A program made the position numbers and the translations under genes. Positions 6,036 to 56,531 of a stretch of DNA of 64,000 nt are shown here, piece after piece (the first letter of the stretch is position 1; each line of letters begins with the position of its first letter). The notes beneath the pieces were generated by a model. The model saw only the letters and a program-made list of their open reading frames with translations, searched no databases and was not told where the DNA came from. Origin of the DNA: an uncultured Oceanisphaera sp. Lineage in GTDB: Bacteria > Pseudomonadota > Gammaproteobacteria > Enterobacterales > Aeromonadaceae. The stretch lies in NCBI RefSeq assembly GCF_947495715.1, contig NZ_CANLZU010000001.1, positions 1 through 64,000 on the forward strand, in the 5' to 3' direction.

Positions 6036-6151
6036 AACGGCCTGTTCCCTGTTATTCGTTAAATACGCCCGGAGTGGCGGCCAGTATACACTCGGCAGTA
6101 ATCACCGACCAGACGAGGTCTGGTATCGAAGCCCGACAGCTCGGTTAAAAG

Positions 6152-6456
6152 TGACACCCCCACCCCGCCTCCCCCTGGGGAAAGCCCGCAGTCATATCTG
6201 CGGCCCCGCTGCCAAGTGGGAGGAGCCGTTCCGTATCGATGGTAAGCTCGGCGCCGCTCAGCTCCCTCCCCTTAGGCTCGGATTGCGCAGAACCACAGCG
6301 AGATGCAACGCAAGGGGAGGGTTAGGGAGGGGTTACTGCAAAATACCTGCATTTTCTGCCGTTTCGATGTCCAGTCAGAAATGACACCCCCACCCCGCCT
6401 CCCCCTGGGGAAAGCCCGCAGTCATATCTGCGGCCCCGCTGCCAAGGGGGAGGAGC
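6152..6456. repeat. 75-bp direct repeat pair in the ydiJ-rluF spacer
   Basis: Bases 6152-6226 and 6382-6456 are the same 75 bases with one difference (t at 6217, g at 6447). Each unit has C-rich and G-rich ends that can pair (CTCCCCCT / AGGGGGAG) and an inner hairpin CCGCAG-TCATAT-CTGCGG. Between the units, CCCTCCCCTT (6264-6273) pairs perfectly with AAGGGGAGGG (6312-6321). The spacer 6036-6525 holds no credible gene; an open frame at 6151-6384 is only a reading of the repeat. Confidence 0.88.
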
Positions 6457-13587: not shown

Positions 13588-13729
13588 AAAGATGTTTGCC
13601 TCGGTTATTTCTCGGATAGACGCTAAAGATACCTTATTCCGAGACAAAAGTGAGGCCTGACGTGTTTCATTGCTGTAAGCGTTGAGCCTGTCTCTTAGTC
13701 ACAACTCTGTCAGCCCATAAGATATGCTC

Positions 13730-13837
13730 AGAGGCAACTGGGTAGCCTCTTCCGACACGCTAAACCGCATCCCTGCGACGCTCAGCACATGACGTCCTGT
13801 CATGTGATGGTCGGCTGAGGCTATCCCAGTCACCTCT
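13730..13837 (+). repeat. Dispersed 61-bp core element, copy A, with outer stem
   Basis: The core is 13753-13813 (CGACACGC...GGTCG) with inner hairpin CACATGAC / GTCATGTG. The outer stem pairs ACTGGGTAGCCTC (13737-13749) with 13817-13830, allowing one bulged base, and AGAGG (13730-13734) with CCTCT (13833-13837). A run of five T follows, so this copy could terminate plus-strand transcription. Confidence 0.8.
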
Positions 13838-13935
13838 TTTTAGGCGCCGAGTCGTCGGTGAGCACCACTGACAGACCACTCCTTGGTTGAGCACGGAGTT
13901 GACGTTCAGTATCTGACAGGCAGCACAGCAGCTTC

Positions 13936-14053
13936 ACGAAGTGGCAGCGGGGATTGCCGGAGCCGACCGTTAAATGCCAGGGACGGCATTTGCCGAGCGT
14001 CCCATGGATGGGCTTGAAGCGTGTCGGCGGAGCGCAACCGCGCTGCTGCTTCG
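13936..14053 (-). repeat. Dispersed 61-bp core element, copy B, with outer stem
   Basis: The core is 13964-14026, reversed relative to copy A. The inner hairpin is AAATGCC / GGCATTT. The outer stem pairs CGAAGTGGCAGCG (starting near 13938) with CGCTGCTGCTTCG (14041-14053) over 13 positions, two of them G-T; TTGC (13954) pairs with GCAA (14034). With copy A it forms a head-to-head doublet. Confidence 0.78.
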
Positions 14054-17468: not shown

Positions 17469-17732
17469 ATGTTTACAGTGATTTTCGGTCGTCCCGGTTG
17501 CCCCTTTTGTGTTCGTGCCAAAGAGCTGGCAGAAAAACTGACCGAGGAACGGGATGATTTCAGCTTCCGTTACATCGACATTCACGCCGAAGGCATTTCC
17601 AAGGAAGATCTGGAAAAAACCGTCGGCAAGCCGGTAGAAACCGTACCGCAGATCTTCATCGACCAGCAGCACATCGGCGGTTACACCGAGTTTGAAGCCC
17701 ACGCCAAGGTCCACCTGGGACTGTATCAGTAA
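17469..17732 (+). CDS. grxA: Glutaredoxin 1
   Basis: An 87-residue glutathione-dependent disulfide reductase, a donor for ribonucleotide reductase and other cytosolic targets. It has the dithiol site C11-P-F-C14, the TVPQIF cis-proline motif and GGYTEF for glutathione binding. Sequence such as VRAKELAEKLTEERDDF and GKPVETVPQIFIDQQHIGGYT matches E. coli GrxA rather than GrxC. AGGAGAGAGCCC precedes the ATG. In E. coli grxA is OxyR-controlled; I could not identify an OxyR site with confidence. A heptad repeat begins two bases after the stop. Confidence 0.94.
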   Translation: MFTVIFGRPGCPFCVRAKELAEKLTEERDDFSFRYIDIHAEGISKEDLEKTVGKPVETVPQIFIDQQHIGGYTEFEAHAKVHLGLYQ

Positions 17733-17734
17733 GG

Positions 17735-17845
17735 GCTGAGACGTGAGGGGTGAGTGGCGAGGCGTGAGGGGTAAAACACGGCGGCCAGAAAACCACTCTT
17801 TTGCTTGTCCTCCTCACTTCTTACCCCCTCACTCCTCACGCCCTA
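17735..17845. repeat. Heptad inverted-arm repeat after grxA
   Basis: Left-arm 7-base units GCTGAGA CGTGAGG GGTGAGT GGCGAGG CGTGAGG GGTAAAA (17735-17776) face right-arm units TCCTCAC TTCTTAC CCCCTCA CTCCTCA CGCCCTA (17811-17845). GGCGTGAGGGGTAAAACAC is shared, on the opposite strand, with the 19268-19449 copy. The rest of the 317-base spacer before alaA (17846-18049) shows no gene. Confidence 0.82.
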
Positions 17846-18049: not shown

Positions 18050-19264
18050 ATGTATTCCGTAGAAAAATCGCACAAGCTGGACAACGTCTGTTACGACATT
18101 CGCGGACCCGTTCACAAAGAAGCCCGTCGCCTGGAAGACGAAGGCCATCGGATCCTCAAGCTCAATATCGGCAACCCCGCTCCCTTCGGCTTCGATGCAC
18201 CGGAAGAGCTGCAAAAAGACATCATCGTCAACCTGCCGACCAGCCAGGGCTATTGCGACTCCAAGGGGCTGTTTTCGGCGCGCAAGGCGGTGATGCAGTA
18301 TTACCAGCAGAAAGGCCTGCGCACCACGGATCTGGACGATATCTATATCGGCAACGGGGTGTCGGAGCTGATCATGATGGCAATGCAGGCATTGCTGAAC
18401 AACGGCGACGAAATTCTGGTGCCCTCGCCCGACTATCCGCTGTGGACTGCCTCCGTCACCCTGTCCGGCGGCAAGGCGGTGCACTACCTCTGTGACGAGC
18501 AGGCCGACTGGTACCCGGATCTGGACGACATCAAGTCCAAAATCACCCCGCGGACCCGGGGCATAGTGCTGATCAACCCCAATAATCCCACCGGCGCGGT
18601 TTACGGCAGCGAGTTTCTGCTGGAAGTGATCGAGATCGCCCGCCAGAACAAGCTCATCATCTTCGCCGATGAAATCTACGACAAGATCCTCTATGACGAT
18701 GTAGCCCACCATTCGGTGTGCACCCTGTGTGACGACGTGCTGGTCGCCACCTTCAACGGTTTGTCGAAGAGCTATCGTGCCGCCGGCTTCCGCCAGGGCT
18801 GGATGATGCTGAGTGGTCCCAAGCATCAGGCCAAGGGCTATATCGAAGGGCTGGAGATACTGTCGTCCATGCGACTGTGCGCCAACGTGCCTATGCAGCA
18901 TTCCATTCAGGCGGCACTGGGCGGCTATCAAAGCATCAACGAGCTGGTGTTGCCCGGCGGGCGCCTGCGCCAGCAGCGGGATCGGGCCTGGGAGCTGCTG
19001 AACGAGATTCCGGGCGTGAGCTGCGTCAAGCCCAAGGGCGCCATCTACCTGTTCCCCCGGCTGGATCCCAAGATGTACAACATCAAGGACGATCAGAAGA
19101 TGGTGTATGACCTGCTGCTGCAGGAAAAGATGCTGCTGGTGCAGGGCACCGGTTTCAACTGGCCCACCCCGGACCACTTCCGTCTGGTCACCCTGCCGCG
19201 GGTAGAAGAGCTGGAAGATGCCATCGGCCGCCTCGCCCGCTTCCTCAAGCATTACCAACAATAA
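18050..19264 (+). CDS. alaA: Alanine aminotransferase AlaA
   Basis: PLP-dependent class-I aminotransferase producing alanine from pyruvate and glutamate. The 404-residue protein starts MYSVEKSHKLDNVCYDIRGP, aligning with E. coli AlaA (405). It keeps NPNNPTGA, the FADEIYDKI loop, Schiff-base Lys240 in FNGLSKSYR, and the FRQGW motif. A frame from 18023 adds nine residues without support. GAGG lies upstream at an acceptable distance. Neighbours are unrelated, and heptad repeat loci lie on both sides. Confidence 0.94.
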   Translation: MYSVEKSHKLDNVCYDIRGPVHKEARRLEDEGHRILKLNIGNPAPFGFDAPEELQKDIIVNLPTSQGYCDSKGLFSARKAVMQYYQQKGLRTTDLDDIYIGNGVSELIMMAMQALLNNGDEILVPSPDYPLWTASVTLSGGKAVHYLCDEQADWYPDLDDIKSKITPRTRGIVLINPNNPTGAVYGSEFLLEVIEIARQNKLIIFADEIYDKILYDDVAHHSVCTLCDDVLVATFNGLSKSYRAAGFRQGWMMLSGPKHQAKGYIEGLEILSSMRLCANVPMQHSIQAALGGYQSINELVLPGGRLRQQRDRAWELLNEIPGVSCVKPKGAIYLFPRLDPKMYNIKDDQKMVYDLLLQEKMLLVQGTGFNWPTPDHFRLVTLPRVEELEDAIGRLARFLKHYQQ

Positions 19265-19267
19265 AAT

Positions 19268-19449
19268 GTGAGGGGTGAGGGGTGAGGTGAACAAGCAACT
19301 CCACAATACGAAAATCTTGAGTTAACGAGCTAAAAGAAAACCAGGATCCTGACGTACGTCAGGATGACGGCTAAAAAGGCTGAAAGAAAAACACCGGGTC
19401 TGTAGATTCGGTGTTTTACCCCTCACGCCTCACACTTTACCCCTCACAT
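19268..19449. repeat. Heptad inverted-arm repeat between alaA and cls, with a perfect palindrome in its spacer
   Basis: The left arm is GTGAGGG GTGAGGG GTGAGGT (19268-19288). The right arm is TTTACCC CTCACGC CTCACAC TTTACCC CTCACAT (19415-19449). The spacer contains the perfect 20-base palindrome ATCCTGACGTACGTCAGGAT (19346-19365). It also has a hairpin ACACCG / CGGTGT whose complement carries ACCGAATCTACAGACCC, close to the spacer of the 2875 copy. It sits between convergent genes and may act as a two-way terminator. Confidence 0.83.
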
Positions 19450-29747: not shown

Positions 29748-29813
29748 AAAACCTCCTGTTATCCATACAGGGCCCCTTGACCCCTGCTATCCATACTAGA
29801 CCAAGAACTTTAC

Positions 29814-29957
29814 TTGAGGGGTGAGGGGTGAGGGGTGAGGGGTGAGGGGTGAGGGGTGAGGGGTGAGGGGTGAGGGGTGAGGGGTGAGGGGTGAAGAGTA
29901 AGGCCCAATCTGCATGCGGTGCTTGTTTACACCTCACTCCTCACCCCTATCCCCTCA
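29814..29957. repeat. Heptad inverted-arm repeat with ten perfect GTGAGGG units
   Basis: The left arm is TTGAGGG, then GTGAGGG ten times without a change (29821-29890), then GTGAAGA. The right arm has CACCTCA CTCCTCA CCCCTAT CCCCTCA (29930-29957). The arms are unequal in length, which is expected if units are gained or lost by slippage. The spacer contains CCCAATCTGCATG, reminiscent of the spacer of the 2875 copy. It lies in the Usp-der spacer. Confidence 0.92.
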
Positions 29958-34710: not shown

Positions 34711-34777
34711 GAAAATATCTCTATGGTTGACGGCTTAAAATAAATTGAATGCTAGAGGTGGTGCCGCAAAGCTTGAT

Positions 34778-34887
34778 AAGCGGATTCAGCTGTTCACTAA
34801 GCCGACCGTGACATGCCATGGATGGCATGTCCGAGCCCCCAGGGATGGGTTTACGGCGTGTCGGCGTGAGAGCAGTTGTGTCCGCTT
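34778..34887 (-). repeat. Dispersed 61-bp core element, copy C, with outer stem
   Basis: The core is 34803-34863, with inner hairpin GACATGCCAT / ATGGCATGTC. The outer stem pairs AAGCGGA (34778-34784) with TCCGCTT (34881-34887), and CAGCTGTTC with GAGCAGTTG over nine positions, two of them G-T. It lies between ispG and hisS. Confidence 0.8.
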
Positions 34888-34899
34888 CTTCATCCAGCC

Positions 34900-41238: not shown

Positions 41239-41393
41239 GTTTGTTCCTTAAATGATAAATAGGACAGAATAAAACGCGCGGAATTATACGTAAAGCCGAC
41301 TCAAGTTAACACCATTGCCGGATAATTTAATTGCCCCCGAAGTTGGCAGCACAAACAGACGACGCTGATGTCTCAGCGAGGGAAAAAGGATCT

Positions 41394-41513
41394 GCTCAGA
41401 GGCAATACAGCCGCCTCCCACGACACTCCATAAACTCATCCCTGAGGGCTCGGAAATGCCATCCCTGGCATTTCACGGTCGTGGGAGGTCGTCTCTGTTG
41501 CCTCTTCCTGAGC
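41394..41513 (+). repeat. Dispersed 61-bp core element, copy D, with outer stem
   Basis: The core is 41421-41481, with inner hairpin GAAATGCCA / TGGCATTTC. The outer stem pairs CCTCCCACGAC (41414-41424) with GTCGTGGGAGG (41478-41488), 11 of 11. Then GGCAA (41401) pairs with TTGCC (41498), and GCTCAG (41394) with CTGAGC (41508). Confidence 0.85.
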
Positions 41514-41546
41514 TTCGAGTTGCCTGTAGACAGTGCCAACAGATGA

Positions 41547-41677
41547 CTCTGCGGTATCAGGGAGGACAAAGGGATCTGCTCAGCCGACCATCCGCACCAC
41601 GGATGGTGCGGCTGAGCCTACATGGAAGTATTCACGGCGTGTCGGCGGAGCTGGCCCTTTGTCCGACCTTTGCAGAG
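41547..41677 (-). repeat. Dispersed core element, copy E, with outer stem
   Basis: The core is 41585-41644, reversed relative to copy D, with inner hairpin CCGCACCA / TGGTGCGG. The first loop of the core is diverged. The outer stem pairs GGACAAAGGG (41564-41573) with CCCTTTGTCC (41655-41664), 10 of 10, and CTCTGC (41547) with GCAGAG (41672). GGATCTGCTCAG flanks both D and E. The 474-base ndk-pepB spacer (41239-41712) holds no gene. Confidence 0.8.
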
Positions 41678-41712
41678 TAATCAAATAGATCTGTTATTTA
41701 ATCAGTTTGGTA

Positions 41713-43017
41713 TTAGCCGGTACCTTCGCATATCTGGGCCAGCATGGCGGCGATGGTCCGCACGCCGTGGCCCTTGCCACCGGCCGCCCACAGATCGTTG
41801 GCCGACTTCTGGTAAGAACCGGACAAGTCCATGTGTACCCACTGACAGCCGTTTTCCGGCACGAAGCGCGACAGGAAGGCGGCGGCGGTAGAGGCGCCGG
41901 CCATGCCTTCGCCACCGTGAATGTTGGCCATGTCGGCAAACGACGAGGTCAGCTGCCCTACATGGAACGGCTCCAGCGGCAGATGCCAGGCTTTCTCATG
42001 CTCGGCTCGAGCCGCCTGCACCGTGCTCTGGGCCAGCGTCTCGTTCATGCTGAACACGGCGTTGTAATCCCGGCCCAGGGCCATCTTGGCGGCGCCGGTC
42101 AGCGTAGCCGCATCCAGGATAAAGGGCGCACCGGTGGCGCCGGCGGCCAGCAGACCATCGGCCAGTACCAGGCGGCCTTCCGCATCGGTGTTGAGGATCT
42201 CGACTGTGATGCCGTTCTTGTAGGTGAGGATGTCACCCAGCTTGAAAGCATGGCCGGAGACCAGGTTTTCGGCACAGCACAGGAACAGCTTGACCCGCTG
42301 CTGCAGGCCGCGCTGAATGGCCAATGCCAGGGCGCCGGTCACGGTGGCGGCGCCGCCCATGTCGGACTTCATCACCGCCATGCCGTCGGACGACTTGAGG
42401 CTGTAACCGCCGGAGTCGAAGGTAATGCCCTTGCCCACCAGCGCCGCGGCAACCGGCGCATTGGCGTCGCCCGTCGGGTTGAAGTCCAGCTCCAGCAGGG
42501 TCGGCGGACGCTCGCTGCCCCGGCCGACTTCATAGATACCCACATAACCCAGATCCTTTAGCTGCTCGCCGCTGTAGGTGCGATAGCTGACCGCATCGGG
42601 GGCCAGCGATTGAATGAACTTGCCCGCCTCGGCGGCGAGAAAGGCCGGATACACCTCTTCCGGGGTGCCATTGATCATCTTCCGTACCCAGCGGGAAGAC
42701 AGGTTGCGGGCTTCCAGCTCGACCAGCTCATCGGCGGACATCTCGCCCCACTCCAGTTGCTGACCGCCACGGGCATTATAGAAACCCAGGGCAAAGGCCC
42801 AGCGGCTTTCCAGCTGCCAGCCATCGCCGCTCAGTTGTACCGCCTTGATACCCATGGCATCAAGCTTGCGCCCGGCCTGCTGCGCCTTGCGCTCCTGCTC
42901 GGCGGCATTGGGTACATGAACCCGGGCTTCATCGTCCTTAAAACTCAACAGTGCCTTGTCGCCCCATTGCGCAGGAGCGGCTTCGGCACAGAGTACGACC
43001 TTCATCATTGCAGGCAT
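41713..43017 (-). CDS. pepB: Peptidase B (M17 leucyl aminopeptidase family)
   Basis: Cytosolic manganese/zinc aminopeptidase with a preference for acidic N-terminal residues in E. coli PepB. The 434-residue protein keeps the M17 metal and active-site motifs KGITFDSGGYSLK, MKSDMGGAATV and NTDAEGRLVLAD. The start at MPAMMKVVL lies 6 bases after AAGGA; earlier in-frame codons up to 43113 lack support, since they would include the terminator hairpin at 43050-43074. pepB follows the isc operon as in E. coli but is separated by that terminator and a heptad repeat. Confidence 0.94.
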   Translation of the reverse strand: MPAMMKVVLCAEAAPAQWGDKALLSFKDDEARVHVPNAAEQERKAQQAGRKLDAMGIKAVQLSGDGWQLESRWAFALGFYNARGGQQLEWGEMSADELVELEARNLSSRWVRKMINGTPEEVYPAFLAAEAGKFIQSLAPDAVSYRTYSGEQLKDLGYVGIYEVGRGSERPPTLLELDFNPTGDANAPVAAALVGKGITFDSGGYSLKSSDGMAVMKSDMGGAATVTGALALAIQRGLQQRVKLFLCCAENLVSGHAFKLGDILTYKNGITVEILNTDAEGRLVLADGLLAAGATGAPFILDAATLTGAAKMALGRDYNAVFSMNETLAQSTVQAARAEHEKAWHLPLEPFHVGQLTSSFADMANIHGGEGMAGASTAAAFLSRFVPENGCQWVHMDLSGSYQKSANDLWAAGGKGHGVRTIAAMLAQICEGTG

Positions 43018-56362: not shown

Positions 56363-56420
56363 TCTTTTCAGTTCCTCGTTATTGATGGTTAAAAGCTGTT
56401 ATATCGGTGTTGTGCACCGG

Positions 56421-56523
56421 TGAGGGAAGGCACAGCACGTCGACACGCCATAAACCCATCCCTGGGGGCTCGGACATGCCATCCATGGCATGTCACGGTC
56501 GACTTAGCTGACACCTTCCCTCA
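56421..56523 (+). repeat. Dispersed 61-bp core element, copy F, with outer stem
   Basis: The core is 56441-56501, with inner hairpin GACATGCCAT / ATGGCATGTC (56473-56482, 56485-56494). The outer stem pairs TGAGGGAAGG (56421-56430) with CCTTCCCTCA (56514-56523), 10 of 10; CAGC pairs with GCTG, and GTCGAC (56439) with GTCGAC (56498). It sits between tgt and yajC. Confidence 0.85.
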
Positions 56524-56531
56524 TCCGTTCT

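Follow-up and report, generated by a model that had tools for sequence, protein, structure and literature searches.

Six copies of a short conserved core, each enclosed by an outer stem of its own, lie scattered through the first 64,000 nucleotides of contig NZ_CANLZU010000001.1 from an uncultured Oceanisphaera sp. (this whole stretch is called the window below). The question raised by this locus is what maintains such a repeat: selection on a folded RNA or single-stranded DNA, or a need of the fold for mobility. We were able to trace the element through the genome, the genus and the gammaproteobacteria, and to ask of its sequence which strand folds and what that strand might bind. The reading that we favour, and to which we give an even chance of being right, is that the repeat is a dispersed element which offers paired CsrA sites on the RNA of its ANGGA strand.

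Six copies in the window and at least 150 in the genome

All six cores listed in a preliminary description of the sequence (13753-13813, 13964-14026, 34803-34863, 41421-41481, 41585-41644 and 56441-56501) were found at those positions, as were the three outer stems that it quoted. We built a 113-position covariance model, R1, from 27 copies of the same genome, the six window copies among them, and its scan of the whole genome recovers all six. A first look at this genome gave 1633 candidates; 150 were scored, and every one of the 150 matches R1. Six copies is therefore right as a count for the window and wrong as a total for the genome, which holds at least 150.

The first module, an outer stem with its two-hairpin core, spans 13727..13839 and has the strand with TCCN loops on the + strand (R1 88.3 bits); the second, at 13938..14053, is inverted relative to it (- strand, 83.1 bits). 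A solo module occupies 34777..34889 (- strand, 108.7 bits), in a spacer between what we take to be ispG and hisS. At 41395..41507 (+ strand, 116.3 bits) lies an A-type module with stems AGGCAA..TTGCCT and CCTCCCACGAC/GTCGTGGGAGG, which forms the left half of a composite with terminal inverted repeats (TIRs). Its right half is a B-type module at 41559..41670 (- strand, 92.9 bits; stem GGACAAAGGG/CCCTTTGTCC), followed at 41687..41713 by the right TIR (- strand, two mismatches to the pattern in the TIR pattern scan). Two pairs of window copies are thus inverted, 13753/13964 and 41421/41585, the latter being part of a TIR element that ends on the right at 41713. A truncated extra copy, consisting of linker and the start of a B module, is found at 41342..41399 (+ strand) as a 58-nt direct repeat (D6), 76% identical to 41526-41583, and the TIR pattern scan lists no left TIR at this locus. 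The last module, again solo, is at 56416..56527 (+ strand, 100.9 bits) with the stem TGAGGGAAGG/CCTTCCCTCA.

The preliminary description saw kept complementarity in the outer stems. With 35-nt flanks, all six window copies beat dinucleotide shuffles: the observed pairing energy was matched by 0, 8, 5, 1, 1 and 0 of 500 shuffles, respectively. Each copy's own flanks also pair at lower energy than any combination with a flank from one of the other five, by a margin that is narrow at 13753, 34803 and 56441 (0.3, 1.3 and 0.6 kcal/mol).

Other repeats were noticed along the way. The window contains arrays of the heptamer TGAGGGG and its variants (29801-29912, 17716-17785, 19254-19287 and 2862-2903), and an 83-nt direct repeat, 95% identical, whose copies at 6144-6226 and 6374-6456 are 230 bp apart; the segment 6340-6526 with the second of these copies is absent from genome G001. 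Elsewhere, locus L287 (G696:C1:93000-98000) holds a tandem array of six heads, one every ~227 bp, at about 94445-95628, and each of its repeats also carries a GTAGGAGCGGCTTCAGCCGCGA palindrome resembling a GTAG-type REP.

A conserved head of two hairpins

Over 33 cores, drawn from the genus and other families, the consensus of the head begins CGCCGTRAA-nnCA-TCCN-TGnn-GGCTY and continues with a second hairpin, nnnnCA-TCCN-TGnnnn. It comprises two hairpins with TCCN tetraloops, which read A-NGGA-T on the opposite strand. In these 33 core sequences 98.7% of the cells are paired and 124 double changes are seen against 30 in shuffles, in a set whose selection demanded TCC and at least four paired bases in hairpin 2 and so favours that helix, pairing in hairpin 1 not being a criterion. 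Sliding the pairing partner abolishes the structure signal. The loops show no variation in TCC; of the 66 hairpins, 65 keep the C-G pair beside it and 58 the closing A-U pair. Read on the opposite strand, this kept loop region is CA-NGGA-UG, and the remaining pairs covary.

A larger set comprises 340 distinct copies, for which TCC and at least four Watson-Crick pairs in hairpin 2 were demanded. The closing pair on the TCCN strand is A-T or G-T in 307 of 340 copies for hairpin 1 and in 328 of 340 for hairpin 2, which fits T or C as the last loop position on the ANGGA strand. Paired AYGGAY hairpins in a fixed order, by which the RNA family TwoAYGGAY is recognised, are present in the copies, the Y at loop position 2 not being strict, as all four bases occur there.

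In 5 of 37 A-type modules (74 listings, each module appearing on both strands) a long form exists, with an extra 50-nt segment at one point of the hairpin-2 loop. This segment of two hairpins holds GGCAGGAGC or a similar sequence, together with an NGGA hairpin whose polarity is opposite. The pattern count located the long form in L289, L290, L292, L301 and L302, and by eye it is also seen in L291, L293 and L295. Another structured segment interrupts hairpin 1 in some modules, and interrupted loops are found as well in loci of G019, G015, G010 and G001 and in one G404 copy of similar build.

Outer stems nearly free in sequence and kept in pairing

We examined the outer stem in 119 copies found by a core-only pattern, 118 of them from named genomes (where the exact core pattern hits at least 118 stretches) and one from a viral contig, the single such contig with an exact core. 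Flanks of the same copy pair at a mean of -53 kcal/mol, compared with -26 kcal/mol when flanks are swapped, and in 61 of the 119 copies the pairing of the copy's own flanks falls below the 1st percentile of swaps. The outer stem is thus nearly free in sequence while its pairing is kept. The preliminary description had taken the unlike stems as covariation: the fold is indeed kept more than the stem sequence, but the differing outer stems largely represent separate stem families and not one compensatory series.

Within a single genome, copies may have stems in common (G109, G092) or have only the part near the head in common, with divergence further out (G145); in G404 almost every copy has a stem of its own. 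In nine regions of G404, 11 copies have stems of 32-55 paired positions with 0-4 mismatches, G.T being counted as paired. By eye several of the G404 stems keep a weak common consensus, and the stem of L367 resembles none of the others. One G404 copy is absent from the sister genome G874, whose divergence is too great for the ancestral arm to be seen.

Many copies are packaged in a miniature transposon

A pattern of the TIR ends (TACCAATC) has 173 sites in the genome at three or fewer mismatches, whereas the reversed pattern has none. These ends bound 27 elements of 129-591 bp (one left end being counted with two right ends). All 27 have TNA on both sides, with the same middle base in 21 of 27 where a fraction of 0.32 is expected (p 1e-6). 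In the typical unit of ~360 bp, one A-type and one B-type module flank a linker and point in opposite directions. TIRs together with a target duplication are what defines a miniature inverted-repeat element (MITE), and both are found in the TIR composites, a description that applies to the composites and not to solo modules. The TNA duplication resembles, we presume, that of the IS5/IS1031 group. With bacterial MITEs, which have no open reading frame, the composites also share their small size; they differ in carrying folded modules as cargo, modules that are found outside TIR units too. No transposase gene was noticed among the 100 of 173 TIR places listed, the profile search being for PF01797 (Y1), of which the genome has two genes. 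The Y1 scan of the window finds none, in agreement with the earlier observation that the window has no TnpA-REP gene.

Relatives show both occupied and unoccupied sites; their flanks are too different for exact empty sites to be drawn. The 414-422 bp region of the 41421/41585 composite corresponds to 33 bp in G013 and 44 bp in G005. The spacer around 56441, 153 bp long here, comes to 17 bp in G013; in G005 it is 11 bp long, and neither holds the stem. Where we find the 13753/13964 pair, G001 and G015 carry a different single element, G005 another, and G013 none. Among the 23 genus genomes the 34803 spacer is occupied in 6, measures 19-24 bp in 11, and in the remaining 6 is 28-108 bp long and lacks a head; in G001 and G008 it holds a module of opposite orientation with another stem. 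Compared with window positions 41346-41714, G019:C13 has the two modules in reverse order and orientation (B then A).

The preliminary description had offered a selected fold or a need for mobility as the choice. That the fold is kept stands, but the two are not alternatives, as a TIR/TNA miniature transposon carries many of the copies.

A class-wide family related to TwoAYGGAY and Ysr224

R1 matches all 23 genus genomes, with from 2 to at least 150 copies per genome; in a sample of 148 genomes of the order, 36 have a match with an E value no higher than 1e-6. A head-only model of 48 positions, R2, matches 72 of 369 sampled gammaproteobacterial genomes; in a sample of the phylum it matches 30 of 398, of which 29 are within the class and one, with a single weak match, lies outside. 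Among the matches listed for the exact core pattern in named genomes are Stenotrophomonas, Xanthomonas, Marinobacter, Alcanivorax, Rheinheimera and Alteromonas, and further Shewanella, Vibrio, Microbulbifer, Methylomicrobium and Zobellella. Phage and plasmid records gave no match for the 34777-34889 module.

The comparison with Rfam and with REP/RAYT collections that the preliminary description had proposed gave kin in the former, while a relationship with the latter is unsupported. Two loci score above the TwoAYGGAY (RF01731) cut-off of 43, L087 at 44.0 bits and L093 at 45.6 bits (the latter reported in one of two scans), and L095 at 70.8 bits exceeds the cut-off of 70 for Ysr224 (RF02770, Yersinia sRNA 224). 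The B module of the window (41559-41670) scores below both thresholds, with 27.5 bits for Ysr224 (E 3e-4, - strand) and 19.3 bits for TwoAYGGAY (+ strand), and the whole window has no Rfam match at the gathering cut-off. The TwoAYGGAY gathering score of 43 is reached in none of the 23 genus genomes (best 33.4), and none of the 18 named loci reaches the cut-off of either family. As judged from sequence likeness, one superfamily contains TwoAYGGAY and Ysr224; because the genus copies and the 18 named loci score below the cut-offs, we do not file the window copies as members of either.

TwoAYGGAY, whose clan also includes RsmY, has two A-Y-GGA-Y hairpins on one strand in the same order as our element, and alignments show the conserved AAG and ACGGCGU parts in common. 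Its outer stem is described as poorly conserved in the available portion of PMC4333381, a further likeness, and the available portion of PMC2864571 lists it as a probable structured RNA, occurring in human gut samples, in gammaproteobacteria and in Clostridiales. The second hairpin of its model is longer than ours, and the present element differs in being dispersed, in up to at least 150 copies per genome, and partly inside a miniature transposon. Ysr224 has the same core, on the TCCN strand. In the accessible text of PMC9029176 it is among the most prevalent sRNAs when every copy is counted, as expected of a repeat. A Ysr224-like copy is found in 5 of 5426 E. coli genomes; the five records (H1-H5), one chromosome and four plasmids, all come from wastewater.

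With REP/BIME and REPIN sequences and their RAYTs the element shares a dispersed intergenic location as palindromes, often in inverted pairs. It differs in its two-hairpin head, its much longer free stem and the lack of a constant GTAG/CGTC tag: at no scored site does GTAG occur in more than 24 of 340 copies, compared with 14 of 340 random 25-mers, and CGTC in 58 of 340 at one site, compared with 6 of 340 random 10-mers, which is not constant. Neither of the two PF01797 loci of the genome (3.2-3.4 kb loci) has a core copy beside the Y1 gene, and the L031 Y1 locus shows only a lone 9-base match with one mismatch. With the tag not constant and both Y1 loci free of the core, we rejected REP/RAYT membership.

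In the consulted parts of the open-access literature on REP/RAYT, MITEs, CsrA, TwoAYGGAY and Ysr224 we found no description of the element as a dispersed repeat, nor do the available portions of PMC3733652, PMC12306157 and PMC10969869 describe it as a repeat.

Mismatches point to the ANGGA strand as the folding one

The strand that folds can be sought in the mismatches of the stems. We counted outer-stem mismatches that stand isolated between three Watson-Crick pairs on either side and are no closer than 10 nt to the core, using an aligner that scores A.C and G.T equally. In 333 stems of the 340 distinct copies, read on the TCCN strand, there are 122 A.C, 23 G.T and 65 other mismatches. The stems form 105 clusters, of which 43 have more A.C and 7 more G.T (p 2e-7); counting each mismatch once per cluster leaves 87 A.C against 19 G.T, and grouping by genome or locus gives 64 with more A.C, 12 with more G.T and 22 ties. 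An A.C on the TCCN strand is a G.U on the ANGGA strand; an RNA in which pairing is maintained would tolerate G.U but not A.C, and the ANGGA-strand fold therefore appears to be the selected one.

The inner hairpins, with the loop-adjacent pair left out, go weakly in the same direction (17 A.C, 8 G.T). The loop-adjacent pair itself departs the opposite way, with G.T in 90 of 680 cases when the TCCN strand is read, which we take as the loop position of AYGGAY. Beyond 30 nt from the core the excess of A.C fades (54 A.C and 45 G.T among all aligned mismatches), and G815 (0:1) and G789 (1:1) lack it. A small positive control of terminator-like hairpins gave 6 G.T, 0 A.C and 8 other mismatches on the sense strand; control hairpins without a T-run were counted on both strands, so that their balance of 295 G.T to 288 A.C arises by construction.

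The signal indicates the folding strand and not its RNA nature, since single-stranded DNA of one strand could yield the same wobble pattern. The annotation of Ysr224, for which expression is reported, counts against the ANGGA reading: it is on the TCCN strand, whereas TwoAYGGAY and the wobble pattern point to the other.

Copies lie between genes without a matching orientation

Genes called by a simple script place 222 of 233 copies between genes (81 of 86 in an earlier set). Solo copies occur in 35 convergent spacers and are rare in divergent ones (13). Between co-directional genes the ANGGA strand of solo copies is sense in 40 cases and the TCCN strand in 52 (p 0.25), the earlier set having given 20 and 27. 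Within 200 bp of gene 3' ends the numbers are 50 for ANGGA and 73 for TCCN (p 0.047), a direction opposite to that expected of the RNA reading. With no matching gene orientation, the counts do not favour a read-through RNA of the ANGGA strand, and this lack of orientation is the main weakness of the RNA reading.

Promoter-like scores upstream are only slightly higher for the ANGGA strand, at 6.7 against 6.0 for TCCN (p 0.007), with a score of 9 or more in 42 and 37 of 271, respectively; promoters belonging to the element itself are thus putative. The T fraction after the ANGGA side is 0.21, that after the TCCN side 0.31 and the background 0.24; TTTT follows the stem in 12 of 333 cases on the ANGGA side and in 22 of 333 on the TCCN side. 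With no T-run on the ANGGA side, a reading of the element as an intrinsic terminator was rejected.

Proposed paired CsrA sites and the competing explanations

Both loops match the CsrA/RsmA recognition sequence CA-NGGA-UG. According to the accessible part of PMC7652899, SELEX of CsrA gave the consensus RUACARGGAUGU, most ligands having GGA in a loop, mostly of six bases, and mostly four or fewer contiguous pairs. The stems here are longer than those of the SELEX ligands, which counts against CsrA. For TwoAYGGAY, binding to CsrA was proposed from a similar motif match (PMC4333381, in the text available). On the strength of the motif we infer that CsrA would be the ligand of the ANGGA-strand RNA.

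The genome encodes CsrA, as do 313 of 369 genomes of the class. Comparing the lists by eye, we found CsrA in 67 of 72 element-bearing genomes and in 246 of 297 others, a difference (Fisher p 0.03) that ignores kinship and genome size. The five of 72 element-bearing genomes in which no CsrA match was found include four that are 67-88% complete (G174, G235, G266, G507) and one, G361, that is 98% complete. This co-occurrence is consistent with CsrA as ligand, but weak.

What we propose is a non-coding gammaproteobacterial element, inserted between genes, that consists of a long outer stem topped by a conserved two-hairpin head. In the RNA of its ANGGA strand two CA-NGGA-UG loops would stand side by side, held by the outer stem in a manner that may suit one CsrA dimer. 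A typical TIR unit, with its two opposite modules, has an ANGGA head on either strand. The ANGGA strand would then act as RNA, and the copies as decoys or as local docking sites for CsrA. Decoy RNAs of the CsrB/RsmY/RsmZ type come from one or a few dedicated genes, whereas the present element has many dispersed copies, with promoters that are only putative. Those decoys carry several GGA hairpin loops and bind CsrA (PMC7652899, in the text accessible to us); the likeness to them here is one of motif.

A different account places the function in DNA: the ANGGA strand would form a single-stranded hairpin at the replication fork and serve as substrate of a hairpin-processing enzyme, as in IS200/IS605 or REP/TnpA-REP systems, and the likeness to CsrA sites would be coincidental. 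We consider this unlikely, though it accounts for much of what we see. A mobile DNA would be expected to show no bias in gene orientation, to be present or absent between relatives, to leave differing elements in the same spacer and to have long near-perfect inverted repeats, and the strand-specific wobble fits single-stranded DNA too. It leaves unexplained why both loops carry the CA-NGGA-TG of CsrA sites and why the related Rfam clan includes RsmY; no copy lies near either of the genome's two Y1 genes, and the GTAG/CGTC tags are not constant. A constant active strand would, moreover, be hard to explain if both orientations were replicated alike.

The intergenic placement of 222 of 233 copies, and the 35 convergent as against 13 divergent spacers of solo copies, could also suggest ordinary hairpin repeats at gene ends, acting as bidirectional terminators or mRNA stabilisers and dispersed by chance. 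The ANGGA side lacks the T-run, however, and a terminator needs no conserved two-hairpin head, so that we hold this account to be doubtful. It is still harder to credit that the head inserts into the loops of pre-existing hairpins, the varied outer stems being old hairpins of the host. The 50-nt insert in the hairpin-2 loop of 5 of 37 A-type modules, and the interrupted loops in G404, G019, G015, G010 and G001, show what such insertion could look like, but these loops may equally represent an inherited long form; the short spacers at 56402 in G013 (17 bp) and G005 (11 bp) have no stem, and the 11 G404 stems, with 32-55 paired positions, exceed ordinary hairpins. That the copies are decayed remains of one known insertion sequence, as the TIRs and TNA duplications might suggest, is scarcely credible, since a full transposase gene would not fit into the 27 TIR elements of 129-591 bp, and the core shows strong conservation and occurs in many other families, where these TIRs were not noticed in the stretches viewed.

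Implications for the family

The element joins two Rfam families annotated on opposite strands in one superfamily of dispersed repeats, and points to the strand that is likely to be functional. It also suggests that censuses of sRNAs may count such repeats as sRNA genes.

The diversity of stems within G404 poses the puzzle of how inverted repeats arise. A bolder version of our proposal holds that the ANGGA-strand RNA titrates or positions CsrA and that, across this class-wide dispersed family, a templated process remakes the outer stem where it stands; taken as a whole we regard it as improbable. One arm would serve as the template for the other, by fold-back or template switching. If it were true, near-identical heads would come to sit on unrelated, near-perfect stems, an outcome of neither fixed-sequence transposition nor plain compensatory drift.

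Under the simpler proposal of an ANGGA-strand RNA with paired CsrA sites, a single genome may hold hundreds of such sites, and the question raised is what effect these would have on the pool of free CsrA or on neighbouring transcripts.
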